Source of the DNA: an uncultured Lachnospiraceae bacterium
GTDB taxonomy: Bacteria > Bacillota > Clostridia > Lachnospirales > Lachnospiraceae
Length of the DNA: 64,000 nucleotides
NCBI GenBank assembly: GCA_934437985.1
Contig: CAKSBI010000007.1
Coordinates: 1 to 64,000, forward strand
Direction of reading: 5' to 3'
This document shows, one piece after another, positions 3,988-54,812 of this stretch. A model generated the notes under the pieces. It was not told the origin of the DNA. It saw only the letters and a program-made list of their open reading frames with translations, and searched no databases. Position 1 is the stretch's first letter; every line of letters starts with the position of its first letter. Made by a program: the position numbers and the translations under genes.

Positions 3988-5388
3988 TTATTCAAAGCCC
4001 AATAATGCAAGTATTCCTGTCGACTGCAAAAATAAAATTACCATAATGACCGGAACAACATACTTTATCATGATGATATAGAGCCGCTTTCTCCTAAATC
4101 TGTCACCTGTAGATTCCATCTCTTCTATTATCCAATCCGGTTTCATGATCCATCCAATAAGGATTGCTGACAGGATACTGATAAACGGCATCATAAAGCT
4201 GTTACTTATATAATCCATTACATCAAGAAGCTGTCCTCCCTTGATTGCAGGGAATGACGTCTCAAAATAAAATACACTGTATCCAAGTGCAACCACAGCT
4301 GTTGCGCCGAGATATATAACAGTAAGTACTGAGGTTGTCTTCTTACGGTCAGTATGGAATATCTCCATGCAATTAGCAACGATTGACTCAAGCACAGATA
4401 TACATGATGTAAGGGCAGCAAAAACTGTCATCACAAAAAATGCCAGTCCAATATATCTTCCTGCCGGTCCCATTTCAAAAAATACTTTCGGAAGTGATAC
4501 AAACATAAGTCCCGGTCCTTTTGACATTCCATCAATTCCGGAAAATACAAATATTGATGGAATGATCATTACACCTGCAAGAACCGCAACAAGTGTATCA
4601 AATATCTCAACCTGTGATACCGCTTTGTTAAGATTGACATCCTTTTTTACATACGAACCATATGTAATCATTATACCCATGGAAACACTAAGCGAGAAAA
4701 ACAGCTGGCTCATCGCATCAAGCAGCACCTGCAGGAACTTACCAACTGTAAGTCCCTTAAAATCCGGTATAAGATATACACTAAGCCCCTGGATACCTGT
4801 CCTGATATTACCCTCTGCATCTTCCGCACTTAGCGTGAGTGCAAATATTGCTATACCAACCACCATCACAAGAAGCACCGGCATCATTATCTTCGAGCAA
4901 CGCTCTATCCCGCCCTCAACTCCATTGTATACAATAATTGCCGTGACCATCATAAAGATAAGACCATATGCTACTGATGAAGGATCAGTGATAAATTCAG
5001 TAAAATACGTGTCAACCGCCGCATTCTCACAGTCACCTGTCAGGAAAACCATTAAATACTTGGTTATCCAGCCACCAATAACTGCATAATATGTCATTAT
5101 TATTACCGGGACAAAAAATGTGATCACGCCCAGGAACTTCCATTTTTTGCGCATCGATGTATACGCATTGATAGAACTCTGCCCCGTCTTCCTCCCTATG
5201 GCAATATCAGTCGTAAGGAGTGTAAAGCCAAATGTAAGTACAAGAACAAGATATATTATTAAAAACAATCCACCTCCATCCTTGGCAACAAGATAGGGAA
5301 ACCGCCACAGATTACCTACTCCTACAGCACTTCCCGCTGCTGCAAGTACAAAACCTAACTGTCCGCTAAATGAACCTTTCTTTTCCAT
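3988..5388 (-). CDS. Sodium:neurotransmitter symporter family (SNF/NSS) transporter
   Basis: Integral membrane protein of 466 residues with about 11-12 TM segments and the LeuT-type start GQLGFVLAAAGSAVGVGNLWRFPYL, whose glycines and GNLWRFPY form the Na+/substrate site in this family. Bacterial members usually take up amino acids (Trp, Leu, Tyr, Met) with Na+. An ATG five codons upstream (5403) begins the sequence ATGGAGGAGA, which itself supplies the SD, so the ATG at 5388 five bases beyond GGAGG is preferred. The specific amino acid is unknown. Confidence 0.9.
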   Translation of the reverse strand: MEKKGSFSGQLGFVLAAAGSAVGVGNLWRFPYLVAKDGGGLFLIIYLVLVLTFGFTLLTTDIAIGRKTGQSSINAYTSMRKKWKFLGVITFFVPVIIMTYYAVIGGWITKYLMVFLTGDCENAAVDTYFTEFITDPSSVAYGLIFMMVTAIIVYNGVEGGIERCSKIMMPVLLVMVVGIAIFALTLSAEDAEGNIRTGIQGLSVYLIPDFKGLTVGKFLQVLLDAMSQLFFSLSVSMGIMITYGSYVKKDVNLNKAVSQVEIFDTLVAVLAGVMIIPSIFVFSGIDGMSKGPGLMFVSLPKVFFEMGPAGRYIGLAFFVMTVFAALTSCISVLESIVANCMEIFHTDRKKTTSVLTVIYLGATAVVALGYSVFYFETSFPAIKGGQLLDVMDYISNSFMMPFISILSAILIGWIMKPDWIIEEMESTGDRFRRKRLYIIMIKYVVPVIMVILFLQSTGILALLGFE

Positions 5389-5891: not shown

Positions 5892-6959
5892 ATGCTTTCA
5901 ATATGTATGATAATAAAAAATGAAGAACGGCTGTTGGACAAATGTCTTGATGCGGTAAGCAGCCTTGGCGCGGAATTAATAATTGTTGATACCGGTTCAA
6001 CCGACGCTTCTATAGATATAGCAGGCAGATATACCGACAGACTGTATGAATATGAATGGTGCAATGACTTTTCCGCTGCCAGGAATTTTGCTGTCAGCAA
6101 AGCCTCTAATGATTGTATTCTTTCACTGGATGCTGATGAAATCCTTGACACCTTTCAGCTCAGCCGGCTTAAAAAATGCATTGAAAAATGCACTGATGAT
6201 ACCACAGATTACCCTCCCCTTGGACGTATAGTGTGTAAAAACCACTATTCCAACAATGGCGAAGAAAATGTCCTTGTCGAAAAACTTCCACGAATTTTTT
6301 CAAAATCCCACTATCATTTTGAAGGAATAGTACATGAGCAGCTTGTTCCCCTTGACCCGGCTGCAAAAAAATCATACATTGATTCGTCCCTGGAATTCAA
6401 TCACTATGGCTACTACGGAGATGAGGATTTTATTAAAAATAAATCAGACCGCAATATCAGCCTGTTAAAAGCAATGCTTGAGGAGACCCCGGACGATCCA
6501 TACATAATGTATCAAATTGGCAAAAGCCACTTTATGCGTGGGGATTATGCTTCATCATGTCAGATATTTGGCGAATGTCTGTACCATGACCTTGACCCAA
6601 AGCTTGAGTATGTCCAGGATCTTGTGGAATCCTATGGATACTCATTACTTAATACCGGGCAGTATGAAGCTGCGCTGGGTCTTGAAGGTGTATATAATGA
6701 ATTTTCAATATCCTGCGAGTTTGTCTTTTTAATGGGCCTTATATATATGAATAATGCCCTGTTTGACAAAGCTGTACGTGAATTCCGCAAAGCAACAGCT
6801 TTTAAAACATGCAAAATCGCCGGAACCAACAGCTATCGTGCTAATTATAATATCGGAGTTATTCATGAATGTACCGGCAATATCAAGGCTGCTAAAAACT
6901 TCTACATAAAATGTAATAATTATGCCCCGGCCCTTAACAGACTTGTTTCCCTGAAGTAA
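5892..6959 (+). CDS. Family 2 glycosyltransferase with C-terminal TPR repeats
   Basis: Cytoplasmic protein of 355 residues. N-terminal GT-A domain with MLSICMIIKNEERLL, the nucleotide-binding VDTGSTD segment and the metal-binding SLDADEI motif; the rest (about 195-350) has tetratricopeptide-like helices (YQIGKSHFMRGDY, YNIGVIHECTGN). This arrangement is shared with SunS-like peptide/protein glycosyltransferases and with many uncharacterised Firmicutes enzymes. The start is ATG 5892 with AAGGAG seven bases upstream; the earlier ATGs lack an SD. No acceptor gene is adjacent, and a strong terminator follows. Confidence 0.85.
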   Translation: MLSICMIIKNEERLLDKCLDAVSSLGAELIIVDTGSTDASIDIAGRYTDRLYEYEWCNDFSAARNFAVSKASNDCILSLDADEILDTFQLSRLKKCIEKCTDDTTDYPPLGRIVCKNHYSNNGEENVLVEKLPRIFSKSHYHFEGIVHEQLVPLDPAAKKSYIDSSLEFNHYGYYGDEDFIKNKSDRNISLLKAMLEETPDDPYIMYQIGKSHFMRGDYASSCQIFGECLYHDLDPKLEYVQDLVESYGYSLLNTGQYEAALGLEGVYNEFSISCEFVFLMGLIYMNNALFDKAVREFRKATAFKTCKIAGTNSYRANYNIGVIHECTGNIKAAKNFYIKCNNYAPALNRLVSLK

Positions 6960-6988
6960 CAGACCGCATGGTTAATCCGCAATTGTTA

Positions 6989-7025
6989 AAAGGCTGCCAC
7001 ATCATCTGACGTGGCAGCCTTTTTG
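6989..7025 (+). terminator. Rho-independent terminator
   Basis: AAGGCTGCCAC and GTGGCAGCCTT form a near-perfect stem around a 10-base loop, followed by a short T run; it ends the glycosyltransferase transcript. Confidence 0.85.
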
Positions 7026-7082
7026 CCTGTCGGACGGACTGTCCCCGGCAGCCCATATCCAATTGCATTTTTCCTTAAATAA

Positions 7083-10000
7083 TTATTTTGATGCTTTAAT
7101 CATTCTCCTATACTTCTTAAGAACAGCCTTCGGAATTATTATTTTGCATTTATTACTAATTTTATAAAACAGCTTCTTACCCATGGCCGTAATTTTCTTA
7201 CCCTTAAATGTAACCGATGAAAGCCTTGTACACTTATAAAATGCCCTCTTACCTATCTTCTTAATGTTGGAACCGATAATTACCTTTTTCAGCTTACTGT
7301 TACCCTTAAATGCATTAGCAGCTATCTCAGTAACTTTATATGTAACTCCATTAATCTTAATTGTTGATGGTATTTTAACACTCTTATAAGTTTTCTTCAC
7401 AGGTCTTACAACCGATACTGTCCGTTTACCTTTTTCATTGGTAAGTACTTTATACCGCAGATTTGAAACCTTTACTATATCCCCGGCTTCCACCACGGAA
7501 TCTGCTCCAGGTGATGGTTCCGGAGACGCCGTTACTGACGGCGCCGGTGTCGGTGTATTGTAATCAAACACATGAAGCTGTATCAGGATAGGAGCAGAGT
7601 ATTCGGCGAAGCCTTCTGAATATATTGCCCTTATATAGTAGTAATATACTGCATTCTCATACTGATTATATGCCTGGATCGAACCGGCATTAATATTTTC
7701 ATTCACCGTAAATGCCGCTCCTGTCACTTCTACCGACTGTAATGATGTCGTATTGCCATCGCATACAGCAACGACATTCCTGACACCATCAATTGTTGTC
7801 GAGTAACTGATCTCATATCCAGCCGCATTATCATTTTTATCCCAGATTAAGTTTATATATTTACCATATGCATCCTTAACAAGGAATCTGTTCACCCTCA
7901 GATCCGGCACAGATGTAGGTGAAGCCGTAGCTTCGGGCGTTCCGGTCGGAGCTGCTGTCGGACCGGATGTTGGATTGGACGTTGGTGAAGGCGTTACTGT
8001 TGGTGTAACAGTTGATCCTGGCGTAGGCTCCGGTGTAGTAACCAGCGTTCCCTTTACCTTAACGCTTACAATATCTGACATGTCGCTGTAAATAAAGCCA
8101 ACACCTACCTTAGCCTGATATCCTCTTACACAGTAATAGTATGTCCTTCCTTCTTCAAGATTGCTGATAGTAAGCGAACATCCTGAAACATCCCTGCACA
8201 GGGTCATATTGTCTCCCGCATTATTGTCAACATTATACACCCTGAACCCTGTTACATTGCCCATATCATCCCACTTAAGATTAACTACACCCTCTTCTAC
8301 GGATTCTGCGGTAAGATTAGTTACCTTTCCATAAGGATTAGGCGTTGCAGTCGGAAGCGGAGTAGGACTCGGCGATGGGGCAGGTGACGACGTGATCATT
8401 ACAAGCAGTCCCTCCGAATAATCACCTAATATATATGTATCATTAGCACTATCCATTATATATGCCACAACATAATAATAATACGGAGTATCAAGCTCAA
8501 TCTCTGTTGTATTAACGTTTGAGCCCTTAATATCATCCCCTGTACGTACACGCTCTCCATCTGCACCTATTGAACGATATACAAAGTATCCGTCTGCTGC
8601 CGGAACTCCGCTCCATCCAATCCTGGCACTGCGCTCATAGAATTCAAGTACAGTAAGATTAGTTGCCTTTCCAACCGGATCCGGCTCTTCAACTACTGCA
8701 TTACCTACAACAGACTTATTAGTAATATCCGAACTGTCACTATATCTCCTTGTGTTCTCGTCTATTATCTCATAAGCCCTTACGAAGTAATAATATCCGT
8801 CATCCGGACCAAGCTCTTTTCCATCATTATGGTCAATATATGAGTTGTCTGTTACCGAACCCCTCTCTTCAACCGCCCCATCAGGTTCTGACTTTCTGCA
8901 CACAAGATATCCGTCAGCTCCCACGACCTTATCCCATGTGAGCTCAATCTCAGTCCCGGCATCATTAACAGCTGCAACCACATTGGCAGGCTTATCAAGC
9001 TTCCAGACAGCATACAATGTAAGGTCTGATTCTACCCTGTAATTATTTCCCGGAACATATTCATAACCCTTACCAAGAGGATCCGTATTCCAGGATACAA
9101 ACGTCCTTCCGGAATACATAAATGTGTTCTGGATTACAGTGACATCGGCACCTGCGATATACTCCATAACAACTTTATCCTCAGTCATATTATTGGCAAT
9201 ATAAGCAATCTTACATTCCTCAAACGTAACATCTATCACCTCAGACCAAGGCTTGTAATACAGAGCATTATCTGTTGTAACATACGCTCTTATAGAATAG
9301 TAATATGTTCCAACACTCTCAACCTTCTCATCAAGATACTCTACCGTATCTCCTGATTCAACCGTGGCAATAAGCTCACCATGCCCATCCTTGTTGCTGC
9401 TCCTGTAAATATAATATCCGCTTACTCCGTCAACCTTATCCCATGTAAGAGACACTGTATCATTTTTTATTGTTCCTGAAAGCCCTGTTACCTGGCCCTC
9501 ACTGACACTGCCGGGCTCAACAGTGACTGTCTCTGATTCTACACCTGCCGACTTAAGCAGTCCTGACGGAAGCTCAATATCCTCATATGCAACGATATAA
9601 TAGTAATACATTGATGTATTATCAATTGCCTCCGTCACATATCTGCTGTCACCTGTAGTTCCAAGATGTTCAAAATTACCATTGAGACCCTTACGCTGGT
9701 ATACATCATAGCCTGTAGCAGAAGCATTACCATTCCAAGTCAGCTCAACTGTGTTGTCATCATTGCGTGATGCCTCAAGCCCTGTTACCGCATTCAGCTT
9801 CCAGCGGGCATTTAATACTACATCTGATTCCAGCACCTCAGCCGATATTGAATCGTTATTACCCTGTTCATCAATATCTGTCTTATAAGATATCTCTGTA
9901 TCATTAATTGTTCCATACCAACCGGTAAACCGATATCCTTCGCGTGTATATGTACAGTCCCTTACCTGAATATCACTGCTGCCCATGATGACATAATCTT

Positions 10001-13000
10001 CAATTATATCTCCCTGGCCTCCATTTGGTCTGTAAGTCAGCTTAACCTTCTCAAATTCAGCCCTGCATGGTTCTGAGTATGCCTTGTAATATACACCATC
10101 CTCATCTTCTACATACGCCCTTACATAATAGTAATATTCACCCGGCATGTAACTGTCAACTGACACATCAAGATACGAATTACCTCTGACATCATCAATC
10201 CTCTCACCATATGAACCTGCCGTATCAGAACGGTAAATGCGGTATCCGGCTGCACCTGCCACTGCATCCCATGTAATTCTTACATACGAACCATGTCCGC
10301 CATCAGGATTAACCTTGCAGCTTACATTCTGCACCTGTCCCTCAGGAGCCGCTGTAGGGGCAACCGTAACTTCATTAGATGCATCACTATATACAGTTAC
10401 ATATCTTCCGGATACAAGCTCATCATTAAGAAATGCTTTGATGAAGTATATGTATGTCATTGATGTGTCAAACTCTCCAATGGTATAACTTTGTGTTGCA
10501 TCCTGGGATGGTACAACCGTATCAACCAGCTCATAATCCCCACCGTTAGTCTGGCGGTATACCTGATAACCGCTCGCAGCACTGTTAGAATTCCATGTAA
10601 GTGTCATCTTTCCATCAAGTATTGCTGCCGCAAGATTAGCAGGCGGATTAAGCTTCCATATTGCATATAATGTTATATCTTTATCAAAATGGCATTCTTC
10701 CTTATCGCTATATGAGGTTCCTGTCTTGTCAGGACTTGTATTCCATTCATCAAATGCAAATCCCTCATTTGTAAATGTATTAGCATCAAGGCTGAATATA
10801 AAATTACGTCCTGTTATCTGCTTTTTAACCTCCATATTGGACTTAATGTTAGAATTAAATGTAACAACAATTGTCCTGATCTCTACAGTAAGTGTTCTTG
10901 AGTACTTACCATATTCTACATTATTTATCTGTCCACTGGTACTATCCTTAATTTCAGTATAGGTTCTGAAATGATAATAGTACGTTCCTTCATTTGGAAC
11001 TTCATCCTCAAATGTGTTATTAACTGAACCATTTACCGTTCCGACAAGTGCTCCATAAGAATCCGCTGAAGATGACCTGAACACCTGGTATCCTGTAACA
11101 CCTCTCTGCTCATCCCAGGTAAGATATACGTTCTTACCTGCAATACCGGTTTTTTCATTGTCATTAACCGCGCCCTTAGTCGTATCAAGGCTCAGCATTG
11201 CCTCTGTTGTAATACTGACTTCATTAGAATCAGTGCTTTCTTCAGAATATGTACCTGAACCCAGTGAAGAATCCCTGTATACCGTTACCTTGTAATAATA
11301 CGTTGTTGATGCCTCAGTTGGCTCAGTCACATACTTAACTGTATCAGCACTCTCTTTTGGTACTGAAGCCATAAGCTTATAATGGCTGTTATCATCCTTA
11401 GAGCAGTATACTCTGTATCCTGTTGCATCTGCTGCCGCATTTTTTGACCATGTAAGCAATACGGCATCATTATCTGTCATTGAAGCATTAAGGTCATTAA
11501 CCGGCGCAAGCTCCCATACGGCATACAGCTCCATATCAGCATCGGCAGTTATCACATCACCCGGCCGGTACATCGTTCCGGCACCATTATCCTGCGTATT
11601 CCATCCTCCAAATACATATCCGTCTTTTGTAAATGTGTTATCTGCAACGGTTACTTCTGTTCCTTTTACAAATTTTACAGGTCCGACTACATCACCGCCC
11701 GTATTTCCATTGCCATTATATGTAAGATTATTGTATTCTACTTTAACACATGCTGCCTCTGAAAATGGTTTAAATACATATGTAGCAGTAGCTCCATTAT
11801 CAACTATTGAGTATGCCCTTATTCCATAATAATAAGTTCCCACTTCAAGGTCTTTATCAACATACGTATACTCTGACTGCGTAACATCTGTAACAGAAAC
11901 TTCATCAATTTTATCCTTCGATGTGAATTCAGTAAATGAATCACCTGCGCTGCGAAGCCTGTATCTGTACACCCAGTAACCGGCCGCATCATCAACAGAA
12001 TCCCATGTAACAGTTGCTGTCCTTCCGCTGACCTCTGCCGATGTAATAACCGCCTGTGTTGAAATCCATATAGCATACAGTGTTGTAGTCTTCTCAATAG
12101 ATATGTGGTCTCCCGGCTGATATGATGTGCCACTGCCATCAGATTCTGTATTCCACTCTACAAAATTATAACCTTCCCTTGAATATCCGGTATCCTTAAC
12201 AACCGGTTTCTCTGACTCCGGAGTTTCCGGCAATGTCAATTCATATATAATGCTGTCCATGCTTCCTTCCGCATCACTGCAGTTAGCATCATAAGTAAGC
12301 TCATATTCAGGATAAGGCTCTGTATCAGTTGTCTCGGTGTAATGGGTCCCCGAAAGCTTTGGATATGAACCTGTATTAAATACCCATGTCAGGTACCTGG
12401 CATTAGAAGGATCATTACCAAGCCCATCTCCCGAACTCTTAATCCAAGCATTAAGTGCTTTATTAACAGTATTACATTCAAGCACCGGCATAGGCAGCGA
12501 ATAACTGCTTCCCGCAAATAACGCCGTATTATTAATATACATATCATCGCAATTATTCTTACCACATGCTGCAGAAGCTGAATACGTATAACAGACAGTT
12601 CCGGGTGTGTTCTTATACTTCTGCCTTGTAAGGCCTTCATACATTGTATAAGCACCATCACTTATTCCGTTAACCCCGGCAATACTTCCTGATGTACCTC
12701 CACTTACTGCGGCCTCATTATACACGTTTGTAATTGCACCACCAAAATTATAACCTGCTATACCACCGGTATACGAACCTGTACCACCGGTTACATTACC
12801 TCTGTTATAACAATTGGCAATAACTCCAAATACATCGGCAAAGCCCTCAATACAACTCTTACCCTCTGATGCATTCTCACCGGCTATACCACCTGCAAAT
12901 GAAGCAGAGCCACCGCCGCTTACATCTGCCATATTGTATGTATTAATTATTGACGTACCATAGTTACGTCCACAGATACCACCAATTGCTTTTGCATTAC

Positions 13001-49060: not shown

Positions 49061-49099
49061 TAAATACAATAATTGACATTTTTCCAAAAGGAGTTTTCA

Positions 49100-50401
49100 A
49101 TGACAACATTTATAAGAGCATTAGAGCTCATTACATATATAATACTTGCATTCGGATGTTTTGGACTTAAACCCCGCATAACACTGTTGTCGGTCAGCAC
49201 GTCCATTATTCTGCTGACAGGCTGGAGCATCTACGCACTATCAGCTGCCACCCCATTTCCGGTAACATTCGTACATATAGCAGTTATATGTGTCCTTATT
49301 AAAGAAAAATTTTATATAAGCTTATGTACCGCTGTTGTTTCGTCCCTGGCTATGAATATAATATCCTGTTTTATTTCCTTTATTATATATGTTTTTTTCC
49401 AGCCACAATCCTCCGGTACATCAAATATCATTTACATATCTTCAATTATTGCATTACTGATCCTGATTGCAGCGTCATTCACCGCACACATCAGATTCCA
49501 TTCATTAACATCCATTGTAAGGGAATTAAGTCTGTGGCAGTGCATTGCAATTACATGTCTGTGCCTGTTTGATTTTTTTCTCTCTTCAATCACCTCTGTG
49601 CTAATGGAGCAGGATCTGAACCGACCTGGCCGTTATCTTATAATCACCACAATATACCTGACCATAATAACGAGCCTTGTCATTCTGGCATTGTACCTCA
49701 GGCTTCACAGACTTAATAAGTTATTAAACGAAGCTAATAATACCAATATGAAGCTGCTGAAGCTTGAAGAGAATCATTTTATGACTCTTCAGAATAAAAA
49801 TATGGATCTGAGGGCATTCAGGCATGACTACAATCACCATATACGCGCCTTACAGAAGCTGGTATCAGACTCTCCTGATAAGCTCGTCCATTATATTGAA
49901 AATATGGCAGAGATTAAAGAGTATACACACTATATCAGCTGTAACAGCCTTGTAGCAGATTCTGTTGTTAATTACTATTATGAGGAGTTCAGGAATATTA
50001 AGGCAGCATTTCAAGTTACCGGTATGCTCCCGGAGCATATTGCAATCGAAGACAGTGATCTGTGTGTCATATTGTCCAATATGCTTAGCAATGCATATGA
50101 TGAAATGATACGTATTGCTTACGATAAAACCAATACACCTGTTGTATACTGCTCAATATTCATTCTCAATAACTATATTGAAATATGTGTTGAAAATACA
50201 TCACATGAATATGCAGGCACATCAATAACAGGTACATCAAAAGCTGATACCATTAATCATGGTTTCGGACTAAGGAATATCGAAAAAGCAGCAAAAAAAT
50301 ATAACGGCAGCCTGCACGTTGACTATTCAGATAACAGGTTCAGGACATCTGTCAGGCTGCAGTACCGGCCATCTGCCACACAGCAGACTTATGGGAGGTG
50401 A
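49100..50401 (+). CDS. AgrC/GHKL-type sensor histidine kinase
   Basis: 433 residues: six or seven N-terminal TM helices (about 1-205) forming a membrane-embedded sensor with almost no outer domain, a dimerisation helix with His242 in RHDYNHHIRAL, and a GHKL ATPase domain (LCVILSNMLSNAYDEM; HGFGLRNIEKAAKKY). This architecture is used for peptide pheromones (AgrC, ComD, BlpH). The ATG at 49100 follows AAGGAG by six bases; the in-frame TTG at 49073 is rejected. No agrB/agrD is seen nearby, so the ligand is not identified. Confidence 0.88.
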   Translation: MTTFIRALELITYIILAFGCFGLKPRITLLSVSTSIILLTGWSIYALSAATPFPVTFVHIAVICVLIKEKFYISLCTAVVSSLAMNIISCFISFIIYVFFQPQSSGTSNIIYISSIIALLILIAASFTAHIRFHSLTSIVRELSLWQCIAITCLCLFDFFLSSITSVLMEQDLNRPGRYLIITTIYLTIITSLVILALYLRLHRLNKLLNEANNTNMKLLKLEENHFMTLQNKNMDLRAFRHDYNHHIRALQKLVSDSPDKLVHYIENMAEIKEYTHYISCNSLVADSVVNYYYEEFRNIKAAFQVTGMLPEHIAIEDSDLCVILSNMLSNAYDEMIRIAYDKTNTPVVYCSIFILNNYIEICVENTSHEYAGTSITGTSKADTINHGFGLRNIEKAAKKYNGSLHVDYSDNRFRTSVRLQYRPSATQQTYGR

Positions 50402-50407
50402 TGTGCA

Positions 50408-51079
50408 ATGCAGATAGGTATATGCGATGATAATACAGATGAGCTTAATAATATAAAAGATATCTGTGTTGATCTGGGATATTCTTCCATTGTATCGTTT
50501 TCATCAGCCGGTGATTTACTTGGAAATAATATCATTTATCCGGATCTATTATTTCTTGACATAGAAATGGATGGAATCAACGGCATTAACCTCAAAAATC
50601 ATTTTGAAAAAAATAACATACCAACCCTGATTGTATTTACAACCAGTCACACAGAATTAATGCCTGATGCCTTCGGGAAAAATGTCATCAGTTTTCTGCC
50701 AAAACCATGCTTAAGACATTCCGTTGCCATGTGTATTGAACGTGCGGAATTTCTGCTGCGTGACTACTACCGCATTCAGACCGATAACGATATTACACTT
50801 ATAAGCCGTGATGTTCTGTATATGTCAGCCGAGCAGAAATATACAATTATATACACAACTTCCAGCCGGTTTTTTCATTCCAGAAAGCCAATCATGCAAT
50901 GGTTCAGTGAGCTTGAACAGATAGGTTACTGCCAGATATCAAGATCAATCATCATCAATATGGTGTATTGTAAATGCATCATAAAATATGAAGCCATATT
51001 AACTGATGGCACCAGGCTCAGGATAAGCAGAAGATACCTGCCACTCACCCTGGCTGCAAAAAAAGCAGGTCTTCTATGA
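50408..51079 (+). CDS. LytTR-type response regulator (AgrA-like)
   Basis: 223 residues: receiver domain (MQIGICDDN acid pocket; phospho-Asp51 in LFLDIEMDG; FLPKPC Lys) and C-terminal LytTR DNA-binding domain (about 120-220; YIIYTTSSRFFHSRKPI, ISRSIIINM, LRISRRYLP). GGAGG precedes ATG 50408. Six bases after the kinase gene. LytTR regulators bind paired 9-bp repeats and in Gram-positives commonly control bacteriocin and virulence genes. The last codons overlap the stem of the terminator of the opposite cassette. Confidence 0.9.
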   Translation: MQIGICDDNTDELNNIKDICVDLGYSSIVSFSSAGDLLGNNIIYPDLLFLDIEMDGINGINLKNHFEKNNIPTLIVFTTSHTELMPDAFGKNVISFLPKPCLRHSVAMCIERAEFLLRDYYRIQTDNDITLISRDVLYMSAEQKYTIIYTTSSRFFHSRKPIMQWFSELEQIGYCQISRSIIINMVYCKCIIKYEAILTDGTRLRISRRYLPLTLAAKKAGLL

Positions 51080-51133: not shown

Positions 51134-52579
51134 CTACCGTATCACAACCTTCCTCTTGCAATGCCACCCCCCAAGAGGTTCCTCATAGTCCTCTGAATCC
51201 TCCATATACGTATCCAGGTATCTTGTGATCTCCACATAGTATGTCTTACCCTTTTCCAGCTTTTTTGACAGGCCCTTTCCATATGGTGCTGTGTAGAGGG
51301 CAAGGTCAAAGTCTGACATGTCCTTATTTTCTGAATAGCGGTAGAAATACGCATCTGTATCCCTGTCATATCCCTTTTTGCCATAATCAGAGGATTTTAC
51401 TGTCACCATGATCCTCCCGTTCTTCGATGTCACACTGTACTTCTTAAATATTGCTTTTGCCCTGATATCACCGAACAGCTTGCCGGGTATTGCTTTTGGG
51501 AATATCTCCCAGTCATTCTTCGCACTGATGTTCCACCCCACAAAGGTATATCCCTTTTTCTTCACATTCCTTGGCAGCCTGGTATCTGAACAGTATGTAT
51601 GCTTCTTCGGTCTCTTACCGTATATCCTGCCACCATCCAGGTTATATGTAATATTGTAGCTCCGGTACACTGCCTTTGCCTTCCTGCCCGGCTTCAGCGA
51701 GGAGACCTTTTTACCATCGACATACCAGCTCCGCCTGCCCTTTAACGTATCAAGGGGCACGCTTGTCCCTGAGTTATTGGCCACGGTCTTTAGTGAAGTA
51801 CAGTCAGCTATAAAATTCTTCGGTATCTCCTTCACTGACCTGCCAATTGTAATCTTCTTAAGGCTGTAACAGTCTGAGAAGGCATACCTGTTAACCTTTT
51901 CTACCGAATCGGGAATTGCTACCTCCTTTAGCCTCTTACACCCAATGAAAGCCCCAAACCCGATCTCACGGACATTTTCCGGCCATACAATGGTCTCAAG
52001 CCTTTGGCATAATATGCATATCGTGGTCGGTATCACCTGCATGTTTGATGGGAATGTTATCTTTCTGATACCTGTGTCTTCAAAAACACTCCTGCCGTAA
52101 TACTCAACTGATTCCGGCAATACTATCTCCTCCCCGATGTAGTTCCGGCAAAAACCATATCTGTCAATCCTCTTTAGGTTCGGCGGCAGGACAATATTAT
52201 TAGTTGCCGAGCTAAAAAATGAATGGTCGCCAATCTCCTGTAAGCTTGAAGGGAACACCACCTCCTTCCACGGCTCACTTTTATCATGTCTCCATAGTCT
52301 CTCAAAACATCTGTCACCGACTTTTTCTATGCCCTCACTTATGACAATCCTTATGATCTTATCACCTATCTCTTTATCTTCCGTGAACTGCTTAGTAATA
52401 GTCCCCTTTCCGCTTATCGTAAGCGTACCGTCCTGTGTAAGGGTGTAACTGCATTCGGGGCCACATTCACCACTTGCGATTACCTCATCCGCCAGACAGT
52501 GCACAGGCCTCATGCTGCATAATATCATTATACTGATTAAGCATAATGACGCCGTTAATATAATATTTCTTTTCATCAT
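51134..52579 (-). CDS. Secreted BspA-like LRR protein with InlB-type repeat
   Basis: 481 residues. Signal peptide (MMKRNIILTASLCLISIMILCS), BspA-type leucine-rich repeats (about 70-265; ISEGIEKVGDRCFERL, VAIPDSVEKVNRYAFSDCYSLKKITIG), one InlB-type repeat (ITYNLDGGRIYGKRPKKHT...VGWNISAKN...AKAIFKKY, about 305-385) and a C-terminal FN3-like tail. No cell-wall anchor motif is seen. Its ATG overlaps the stop of the helveticin-like gene (ATGA), so the two are translationally coupled. LRR proteins of this type bind host or glycan surfaces. Confidence 0.85.
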   Translation of the reverse strand: MMKRNIILTASLCLISIMILCSMRPVHCLADEVIASGECGPECSYTLTQDGTLTISGKGTITKQFTEDKEIGDKIIRIVISEGIEKVGDRCFERLWRHDKSEPWKEVVFPSSLQEIGDHSFFSSATNNIVLPPNLKRIDRYGFCRNYIGEEIVLPESVEYYGRSVFEDTGIRKITFPSNMQVIPTTICILCQRLETIVWPENVREIGFGAFIGCKRLKEVAIPDSVEKVNRYAFSDCYSLKKITIGRSVKEIPKNFIADCTSLKTVANNSGTSVPLDTLKGRRSWYVDGKKVSSLKPGRKAKAVYRSYNITYNLDGGRIYGKRPKKHTYCSDTRLPRNVKKKGYTFVGWNISAKNDWEIFPKAIPGKLFGDIRAKAIFKKYSVTSKNGRIMVTVKSSDYGKKGYDRDTDAYFYRYSENKDMSDFDLALYTAPYGKGLSKKLEKGKTYYVEITRYLDTYMEDSEDYEEPLGGWHCKRKVVIR

Positions 52580-54729
52580 TTTGACCTCTTTTTATATTGG
52601 CTTTCCTGCATATATTTTGTTGGGATGGAGCACAGGTATTGACGTGACTTATCTGTCCCTTTCCCATTATTAGGTGCTATAATAAATATAATATTTTTAC
52701 CCTCAATATGCAAACTCTCTATTTCCCTGGCAATCTTTTTACCACCAAAATTCACCTTTTGGGGGTTTACACGCAGCTGCGTCCTGTAGCTTCCATTTTT
52801 AGTAAGGTCTTTTGTGCTGTTCCTGCTTATCGTCATCATGCTTATATAGAGAGGCTTCTTCTTGTGCTCATCCCCTGATGTGAAATAAACCTTATTCTTC
52901 TTAATTGTGCCCCCTTTTTTATCTTTCACCCCGTATGTATCAGACACCTCTATCCCCTGGTTTGACCCGCCGGGTCTTATAAGCTGCGTCTTTTCTTTCT
53001 GTTCACAGCTGTAATTACACCACTTTTTTTTCATAGACTTGAATGACAATGATTTTGCATCAGGGTTGTCCTCAAAATATTTTATTATCTTTGGCATGCT
53101 GTAACACGCTATCTGGATTTTCGTTGTCTTTATCTTTTCGTCATCATCACCATTGATATCATTTGCAAACCATACACACAGCGTCCTGTTATCCTCGGAT
53201 AATGCGGCATCTATCCTTCCCACCCTTGCAAAGTACTTCCTTTTCTGATTGGCATAGGCAAGCTTGGTTATACGTTTCATCCCAAAGTCAGTTTCATTAT
53301 TGTTTTTCCCGGTATTTAAAACAGTACATGCACTATATTTAACCAGTGCCAGCGACTGCGAGAATTCCTTCCTTACATTTGCACCTAAGAGCATATACAT
53401 CTCACCGTTGCAGCTGACAAATTCAAATGTCTGTCCATGTGCAAACCCCTTCAGGCGCATGGTACTTTTTTCATCAAAGTTCAGTACCTTATTATCCTGG
53501 CTGTCGACTGAACAGGTGGATATATATATATCATTTCCTTTCCTCTGCGCTATATAATACTTATCCCCAAGCTTTGCATAGGACTGTAGGGCAGTTGGAC
53601 TTAATGTTTTAGGATTATTAGTGTCAAGGTCTTTTTCTAGCTTAATCCCTTTAATCTCAAATTCAATCCCCTTATCCCCCATTGTAACCTTTCCCGGTCG
53701 GAGGGCAGGCCGTGCATATCCCTTTTTATCATCACCTGTAGGCTCTATAACTTTTTTACCTTTCAATAATGCGGCCCTGACCATTATATATGCCCGGTAT
53801 TCTTCCTCCGTATCAAACTCATCCTCATCCCTTTCATATCCGTCCCCAACCTCACCTTCAATCTCCGTCTCTTCATCAGCAAGCTCCATCATATCATACA
53901 GGTAATATTCATCTATCCCTGCATCACCTTCCGCTTCGCCAATAAATCCAAATGAGACTGTTCCCCCCGGTGCGATTGATGCATTATGGCAGGAATTATT
54001 CAGGTATATATAATGGTCATCACTTTCCTCAACAACTGCGTTCCAGACCTGCTCCATCTTTATCCCGGTTTCAAGCTCCAGCTTCCAGTCATCAATAATC
54101 CTGTCAGACAGGTTATGTATCGTTATCTCACCATTAACCTTATTGCCATCCCACCTGCTGTATTCTTTATATGTCACATCATACTCATCAAGAACCTCTG
54201 CAGCTTCTTTTGTAAGGTATGCAGTATCAGGGAACTCCACATCATCCCGGTAACTGATAGTCATTCCGAATGATGCCGTGCCCCCACACGCAATATCCTG
54301 GTTCCAATACACATTCTTTATTGTATATGTATTGCCTTCTTTTTTTGTTATCTGCGCATTCCATATATTCTCAATCTCAGCATCCATGTCAAACCTGATC
54401 TCCCAATCCTCAATGTCCTCCTCCATGGAATTGGTCAGTGTCACCTCAACATTGCTGTGGTCCTGCCAGGAAGCCAGCACCCTGAAGCATGTATCAACCT
54501 TATTCTCTGTTAAGATATCAAGGGCTTCCTCATAATCTTCATCCGTTATATCATCAATTACATATTCCTCATTCTCATCCGGTTCTTCAAACTCCATGTC
54601 ATCATAATCCTCATCGTCCTCAAACACATCACCTTCACGTAATTCAAATGCCTGTGCAGAGCCTGCATTACATATTATGGCATTAAATACAAATACCATT
54701 ACCATTACATATGCTATAAATCTTCTCAT
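52576..54729 (-). CDS. Secreted CBM2-like x2 plus helveticin J-like (class III bacteriocin) protein
   Basis: 717 residues. Signal peptide (MRRFIAYVMVMVFVFNAIICNAGSAQA), acidic stretch, two tandem CBM2-like domains (FRVLASWQDHSNVEVTLTN... / GEITIHNLSDRIIDDWKLELE...WNAVVEE), then about 370 residues that follow helveticin J motif by motif: KGNDIYIS, KGFAHGQTFEF, LALVKYS, the RVGRIDAALSEDNRTLCVWF segment, SNQGIEV, and EIESLHIEG. Helveticin J is a heat-labile large bacteriocin of Lactobacillus. ATG 54729 follows GAGG by eight bases; another ATG at 54783 lies in this frame but overlaps the small ORF. Whether it kills, binds cellulose or adheres is unknown. Confidence 0.78.
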   Translation of the reverse strand: MRRFIAYVMVMVFVFNAIICNAGSAQAFELREGDVFEDDEDYDDMEFEEPDENEEYVIDDITDEDYEEALDILTENKVDTCFRVLASWQDHSNVEVTLTNSMEEDIEDWEIRFDMDAEIENIWNAQITKKEGNTYTIKNVYWNQDIACGGTASFGMTISYRDDVEFPDTAYLTKEAAEVLDEYDVTYKEYSRWDGNKVNGEITIHNLSDRIIDDWKLELETGIKMEQVWNAVVEESDDHYIYLNNSCHNASIAPGGTVSFGFIGEAEGDAGIDEYYLYDMMELADEETEIEGEVGDGYERDEDEFDTEEEYRAYIMVRAALLKGKKVIEPTGDDKKGYARPALRPGKVTMGDKGIEFEIKGIKLEKDLDTNNPKTLSPTALQSYAKLGDKYYIAQRKGNDIYISTCSVDSQDNKVLNFDEKSTMRLKGFAHGQTFEFVSCNGEMYMLLGANVRKEFSQSLALVKYSACTVLNTGKNNNETDFGMKRITKLAYANQKRKYFARVGRIDAALSEDNRTLCVWFANDINGDDDEKIKTTKIQIACYSMPKIIKYFEDNPDAKSLSFKSMKKKWCNYSCEQKEKTQLIRPGGSNQGIEVSDTYGVKDKKGGTIKKNKVYFTSGDEHKKKPLYISMMTISRNSTKDLTKNGSYRTQLRVNPQKVNFGGKKIAREIESLHIEGKNIIFIIAPNNGKGTDKSRQYLCSIPTKYMQESQYKKRSK

Positions 54730-54755: not shown

Positions 54756-54812
54756 CTACTTTCCGAACAACTTTTTCAGCCATTCATAAAAACTAAAACC
54801 TGACAGATACAT
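54756..54812 (-). CDS. 18-residue peptide ORF with a strong ribosome binding site
   Basis: Too short for routine prediction. ATG 54812 is seven bases after GGGAGG, the best SD in this cassette, and the frame runs MYLSGFSFYEWLKKLFGK to TAG at 54756. The peptide has six aromatic residues and a net charge of about +2 and could form an amphipathic helix. It ends 26 bases before the helveticin-like start. It may be a pheromone, a leaderless antimicrobial peptide or a translated leader. There is no adjacent processing gene. Nothing here proves that it is made. Confidence 0.5.
   Translation of the reverse strand: MYLSGFSFYEWLKKLFGK

Follow-up and report, generated by a model that had tools for sequence, protein, structure and literature searches.

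The window considered here is a stretch of 64,000 nucleotides (positions 1 to 64,000 of contig CAKSBI010000007.1, GenBank assembly GCA_934437985.1) from an uncultured Lachnospiraceae bacterium, and at 52576..54729, on the reverse strand, it carries a gene for a 717-residue protein in which a signal-type N-terminus, an acidic linker, two CBM2 modules and a helical linker precede a helveticin-like domain, predicted to be a five-bladed beta-propeller of the kind found in phage receptor-binding proteins (RBPs). All parts of this protein located below lie on the reverse strand. The hydrophobic signal-type sequence begins at 54729, with an alternative in-frame ATG upstream at 54783; read by eye, it covers residues 1-27 (54649..54729) with A-x-A at residues 25-27, and in the predicted model a helix spans residues 2-22. 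Such an N-terminus suggests that the protein is probably secreted.

The original prediction placed two CBM2 domains ahead of the C-terminal domain, and this is confirmed by PF00553, which matches the protein in two stretches (E 1.3e-31, 109.3 bits against a cut-off of 24); by sequence, the CBM2 identity is beyond doubt. The polysaccharide-binding residues of CBM2 form a surface triad of aromatic residues. In the first module (residues 82-168, 54226..54486), assigned by Pfam and by tryptophan alignment, W88, W123 and W142 match tryptophan positions of 1exg, a CBM2 chain from C. fimi, and in the second (residues 186-269, 53923..54174) W193 and W229 match those of 2rtt (ChiC), with a histidine at the third position. 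A CBM2 match is found in 46 of 46 members of the protein family assembled here (set A1, window protein included). The retained tryptophans recall secreted CBM2-bearing proteins such as cellulases and chitinases, but the Pfam scan detected no glycoside hydrolase domain in the window protein, and its CBM2 modules lie N-terminal to a propeller.

The relationship of the C-terminus to helveticin J (PF17312, a class III bacteriocin of lactobacilli) lies below what single sequences can detect. In a single-sequence Pfam scan PF17312 did not match the window protein at E<=1, and at the same threshold PF17312.8 picked out one of the 46 A1 proteins, P0022, at 21.5 bits (below the cut-off of 25.5); the database's precomputed PF17312.10 tags marked 3 of 69 homologues in one search and 2 of 17 in another, and the tagged P0028, P0042 and P0073 were not reproduced by PF17312.8 at E<=10. 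Because it misses the cut-off, the window protein is treated as a distant relative of Helveticin_J and not filed as a member. The search of a helveticin profile envisaged in the original prediction thus failed with a single sequence, a result overturned by profile-profile comparison, built on database proteins: nine diverse family C-termini (set A2) align with 42 helveticins (set A4) in hhalign over 261 columns at probability 98.2 and score 106.7. Pairwise hhalign E-values are not calibrated against a database, so reversed and shuffled controls were used instead, and these scored 17.0 (reversed helveticin profile) and 24.1 (best of 40 column shuffles). The motifs that the original prediction had seen to follow helveticin J do align in the same order (family/helveticin AHGQTFE/GHTQTWE, RIDAALSED/HAEAAVSPD and REIESLHIEG/SEVESIQIIG), with GSNQG/NSIQG as a further aligned pair missing from its list. 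On the strength of these profiles the C-terminus is homologous to the helveticins, and the predicted combination of CBM2 with a helveticin-like domain is right by Pfam and by profile-profile comparison. None of the aligned helveticins, in contrast, is tagged for CBM2, and most are about 300-350 residues long, where the window protein has a signal-type N-terminus and two CBM2 modules. Sequence searches of the PDB gave no match to the C-terminal profile; with the helveticin profile there were two, at E 0.21 and E 0.9, both attributed to chance. When 398 genomes of the phylum were searched with PF17312 nothing matched, but the controls were silent too, so this result is uninformative; the PF17312 match of L005 in genome G001 (E 0.17) was discarded as chance.

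Structure prediction places the helveticin-like domain at about residues 345-712 (52594..53697), with the profiles in agreement. Its model compares best, by VIA-align Z score, with the phage RBP propellers of phi11 (22.7), 80alpha (22.5), P68 (21.3) and NF5 (19.2), the next propeller scoring 13.7, and the model of helveticin J (predicted local distance difference test score 95.3) behaves alike (22.9 for 80alpha, 22.7 for phi11, 21.4 for P68, 19.9 for NF5, then 15.8). Both are therefore predicted to be five-bladed propellers of the phage RBP type, and the comparison of folds proposed in the original prediction gave the C-terminus the same predicted fold as helveticin J. The PF21311 (Phage_RBD_prop) platform, comprising phi11 Gp45, 80alpha gp61 and the P68 fibre, is thus the best structural match of both models. 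The window protein differs from this platform in having no stem or tower domains and in lying below its cut-off (no PF21311 match at E<=1), and the setting differs as well, no phage structural genes being recognised by eye among the window's open reading frames (ORFs). The annotation "major teichoic acid biosynthesis protein C" carried by some phage RBP propellers is probably a misleading transferred name.

A bridge in sequence between the two groups is provided by nine CBM-less propellers of Clostridia (set A8). Against the helveticins A8 reaches probability 99.9 and score 236.9 (reversed control 15.3), and against seven phage RBP propellers (set A6) probability 97.2 over 247 columns with score 84.4 (reversed control 18.9); in both comparisons none of 40 shuffles reached the score. 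One A8 row, L031, the most RBP-like of the set, itself exceeds the PF21311 cut-off (31.4 bits against 23.7), and the comparison with A6 was for that reason repeated without it, giving probability 94.6, score 62.5 and 100 columns (best of 40 shuffles 23.0); removal of other rows left probabilities of 89-94 over about 100 columns. Since the link survives these removals the homology is independent of L031, while the full-length register depends on it. A single protein, L009, scores for both families (PF17312 at 36.0 bits, above the cut-off of 25.5; PF21311 at 22.1 bits, just below 23.7), and L037 lies just below the PF21311 cut-off.

The same set of residues recurs across these families. In the window protein Gln382 (53584..53586), Gln591 (52957..52959) and Glu669-x-Glu671 (52717..52725) align with Gln165, Gln330 and Glu385/Glu387 of the phi11 RBP and with Gln27, Gln227 and Glu293/Glu295 of helveticin J, and His431-Gly432-Gln433 (53431..53439) supplies the invariant histidine, equivalent to phi11 His209, together with Gln433 at the position of phi11 Thr211. 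Counted over the alignment rows that have any residue at the position, the equivalents of Gln165, His209, Gln330, Glu385 and Glu387 are kept in 46/46, 46/46, 43/44, 43/43 and 43/43 rows of the window family, and all five are kept throughout the helveticins (42/42), the phage RBPs (7/7) and the Clostridia proteins of A8 (9/9). The available text of the phi11 study characterises the propeller domain as receptor-binding, with Gln165, Thr211 and Gln330 lining a cavity that holds a modelled N-acetylglucosamine (GlcNAc) (PMC4901313), and the corresponding part of the 80alpha paper restates the suggestion that the propeller binds GlcNAc of wall teichoic acid (PMC7048315). The conserved site of the window propeller would probably bind a sugar.

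The CBM2-propeller gene overlaps by 4 bases with a gene downstream (51134..52579, reverse strand) for a 481-residue protein with a signal-type N-terminus (by eye), a List_Bact repeat and BspA-type leucine-rich repeats (LRRs) of the LRR_5 family (PF13306, 126.8 bits against a cut-off of 27.7). The BspA-type family includes adhesins; the partner's NCBIfam match, to the HupY/LrrG adhesin, falls far short of the cut-off. A model made from seven partners, applied to the 1.5 kb flanks of 44 propeller loci, finds an LRR partner downstream in 32 of the 44 (26 of 38 once six seed loci are left out) and upstream in one. LRR_5 matches number 53, 5, 22 and 76 in four genomes, and the single upstream case means that this abundance does not account for the downstream position. 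Dropped before counting were 6 of 36 places in one survey (second fragments of a gene already represented, a contig end, no locus), L078 and L080 (2 of 8), duplicates of counted places, and L032 and L038, rejected as spurious for ORFs that look unrelated; a 44-residue LRR match of L082 is a fragment and was not counted. Among 35 of the 44 loci taken into a follow-up count, the partner accompanies all 18 that have CBM2 in reach and 7 of the 15 CBM-less loci with at least 800 bases upstream. In a mirror test on 18 gene pairs free of internal stops, propeller and partner distances correlate at r 0.902 (0 of 2000 permutations, which take no account of relatedness), as would be expected if the two genes are inherited as a unit. 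The propeller and LRR_5 genes form a conserved two-gene unit.

Something comparable is seen in lactobacilli, where a gene for an SlpA/SLAP-type surface protein adjoins the helveticin gene in six of seven plasmid records (eight matched and H98 was left out; three come from one species, so the records are not independent). Four of these neighbours are confirmed by Pfam and two named by annotation, and in record L101 the gene lies upstream. The partners differ, LRR_5 in Clostridia and SlpA/SLAP in lactobacilli, but in each setting the propeller is paired with a surface-type protein, which may be an immunity protein, an anchor or a co-factor. To our knowledge the immunity of helveticin producers has not been described. 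Genes annotated "phage holin, LLH family" also lie near plasmid helveticin genes in L099, L101 and L103, one of them confirmed by PF09682.

Convergent with the gene pair in the window are a GHKL sensor histidine kinase (49073..50401, forward strand) and a LytTR response regulator (50408..51079, forward strand). Such a kinase and regulator occur at 4 of 18 CBM2-type loci (the window, L001, L046 and L090); the first three also seeded the regulator models, leaving L090 as the lone independent find. None was seen at five CBM-less loci, nor at 35 short loci whose flanks extend little past the gene. At L001 the set is agr-like, with AgrB (PF04647), LytTR and an AgrC-like kinase; just upstream of the CBM2-propeller gene lies the gene for an AgrD peptide (TIGR04223, 34.1 bits against a cut-off of 19). 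These neighbours hint at density control of the CBM2-propeller gene, not as a general rule. Between the agr-type kinase and CBM2-propeller genes of L001, at 8520-8550, there is a direct repeat (ATTCGTGAAC/ATTCGTGTAC, 21-bp spacing) with the shape of a possible LytTR/AgrA box; neither the window nor L046 showed a recognisable direct repeat of LytTR type. In L044, a second CBM2-propeller gene is preceded by an ORF (4179-4301, reverse strand) for a 41-residue peptide that looks AgrD-like by eye and has no NCBIfam match at E<=0.1.

The best overall explanation, to which we give a probability of about 0.6, is that the window gene encodes a secreted two-headed glycan-binding protein. Its CBM2 pair, by homology and retained tryptophans, would hold it on insoluble polysaccharide, and its propeller would probably use the Gln/His/Gln/Glu-x-Glu site to dock a sugar found in the cell-wall glycopolymers of Gram-positive bacteria; it would be made together with the LRR_5 protein from the two-gene unit, in some loci beside an agr/LytTR regulator, and its likely job on fibre surfaces would be the recognition of Gram-positive neighbours, whether to antagonise them or to attach. 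On this view helveticin J would be a bacteriocin of lectin type that uses the same domain for recognition. Recognition of wall glycan by the propeller is in our judgement somewhat favoured, and if it is granted, attachment has an even chance, antagonism a little less than that, and any other role only a small one. Several results weigh against this explanation. Direct comparison with phage RBPs gives weak alignments for the helveticins (probabilities 1.6 and 2.7) and middling ones for the window family (29.2 and 45.7, the latter with all four motifs in register), so that A8 and the fold carry the link, whose full-length register depends on the single row L031. Searches of phages by tblastn with the window C-terminus, helveticin P0080 and L036 found no relative, the single match (E 4) being at chance level. 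The Thr211 position is Gln in 38 and Asp in 8 of 46 window family rows (Gln in 41 of 42 helveticins and 8 of 9 Clostridia proteins), the phi11 GlcNAc site is modelled only, soaking and cocrystallisation having failed according to the available text (PMC4901313), and the LRR gene is absent downstream in 12 of 44 loci.

The alternatives divide first over what the pair does. It may be purely adhesive and not antibacterial, linking the producer or its partner cells both to fibre and to other Gram-positive cells, a tentative possibility that fits the phage adhesin fold predicted for the propeller, the BspA-type partner and the scans of Pfam, NCBIfam and PADLOC, which found no toxin or killing domain in the window protein and no match at all in its C-terminus. 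However, its nearest named relatives are annotated as bacteriocins, quorum-type regulators stand at some loci, and no wall-sorting motif is evident by eye at the C-terminus of either protein, so that display on the producer would go unexplained. An antagonist of the bacteriocin type, whose propeller would bind the wall glycopolymer of competitors and stop their growth while the LRR_5 protein (or in lactobacilli the S-layer-type protein) protects the producer or completes the activity, we consider rather unlikely. Helveticin homology, the linkage to a partner gene in Clostridia and lactobacilli, the agr/LytTR neighbours and the multiple, partly broken paralogues, such as turnover of antagonism genes might leave, speak in its favour; yet both proteins seem to be secreted, which is not usual for immunity proteins, no membrane immunity gene is evident by eye beside the pair in the window, and the partner is missing from the 12 loci noted above. 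With no killing domain detected, the case for antagonism is built on kinship with helveticins and on the gene context. The "class III-like toxin" of the original prediction accordingly stays a conjecture, with the PF17312 cut-off missed and a domain resembling phage adhesins, while its other suggestion, an adhesin held on polysaccharide, agrees with the anatomy; the propeller fold, the phage RBP bridge, the LRR_5 partner and the agr/LytTR neighbours were absent from that account.

The two remaining alternatives concern the propeller itself. Its invariant His, Glu-x-Glu and two Gln could form an active site that cleaves or modifies wall glycopolymer, as in five-bladed propellers of the GH43/GH62 type, but enzyme propellers score far below phage RBPs in the structure comparison of both models and the accessible text on phi11 describes a receptor-binding domain (PMC4901313); an enzyme in place of a lectin is quite improbable. 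Five-bladed propellers are common, the direct A4-A6 profile score is weak and the A8-RBP alignment without L031 spans only about 100 columns, all of which would suit mere convergence of generic propellers. Against this, A8 links the helveticins and phage RBPs with clean controls and a link that survives row removal, L009 scores for both PF17312 and PF21311, and the five site residues appear in the same order throughout, making convergence very improbable.

The predicted fold and the conserved site shared with phage RBPs offer a candidate target for helveticins (wall glycopolymer), named residues and a candidate partner gene, and they show a phage-type recognition domain in use in Clostridia proteins with signal-type starts, fused to fibre-binding modules. 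More tentatively, and short of even odds, helveticin bacteriocins, Clostridia propellers and staphylococcal phage RBPs might be one superfamily with one universal Gln/His/Gln/Glu-x-Glu site for a feature of wall glycopolymers, a recognition module common to bacteria and phages, with two-gene units in which a secreted LRR_5 or S-layer-type partner serves as immunity or co-receptor and with the CBM2 fusion as a fibre-surface weapon or trap. Helveticin-M is reported to damage wall and membrane, with no receptor named in the available part of that report (PMC8538875), and in another report an AlphaFold model of a helveticin homologue was made for use in docking. The accessible text on Streptomyces umbrella toxins describes UmbA propeller lectins, five-bladed versions among them, that bind wall teichuronic acid (PMC13274773); these too are secreted propeller lectins aiming antagonism at wall glycan, but they belong to large toxin particles with separate toxin domains, and the likeness drawn here is one of logic. 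Literature searches brought up no paper that joins helveticin to a propeller, a receptor-binding protein or a cellulose-binding domain, nor one that joins class III bacteriocins to a receptor-binding domain and a phage tail, subscription papers and preprints lying outside their coverage; a curated propeller assignment of PF17312 at the level of a Pfam clan may already exist. We rate the helveticin-phage RBP link as unusual and testable, and the whole as a known kind of system with new variation.

The family is patchy, occurring in 15 of 39 genomes of the genus of G001 and 5 of 299 in the sample of its family; G001 itself has several paralogues, some broken, and the C-terminus located four loci in Eubacteriaceae, Clostridia and Lachnospiraceae genomes. 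Propeller genes split over frames or fragmentary are found at L040, L084, L093-L095 and L004/L017. Just upstream of the CBM2-propeller start in the window, an 18-codon ORF (MYLSGFSFYEWLKKLFGK; 54756-54812, reverse strand) has a strong Shine-Dalgarno sequence, and no peptide resembling it was found at 12 other gene starts scanned. At L043 other genes (6839-7975 and 9819-11549, reverse strand) replace LRR_5 beside a CBM-less propeller gene, the first having no significant Pfam match and the second matching DUF5050.

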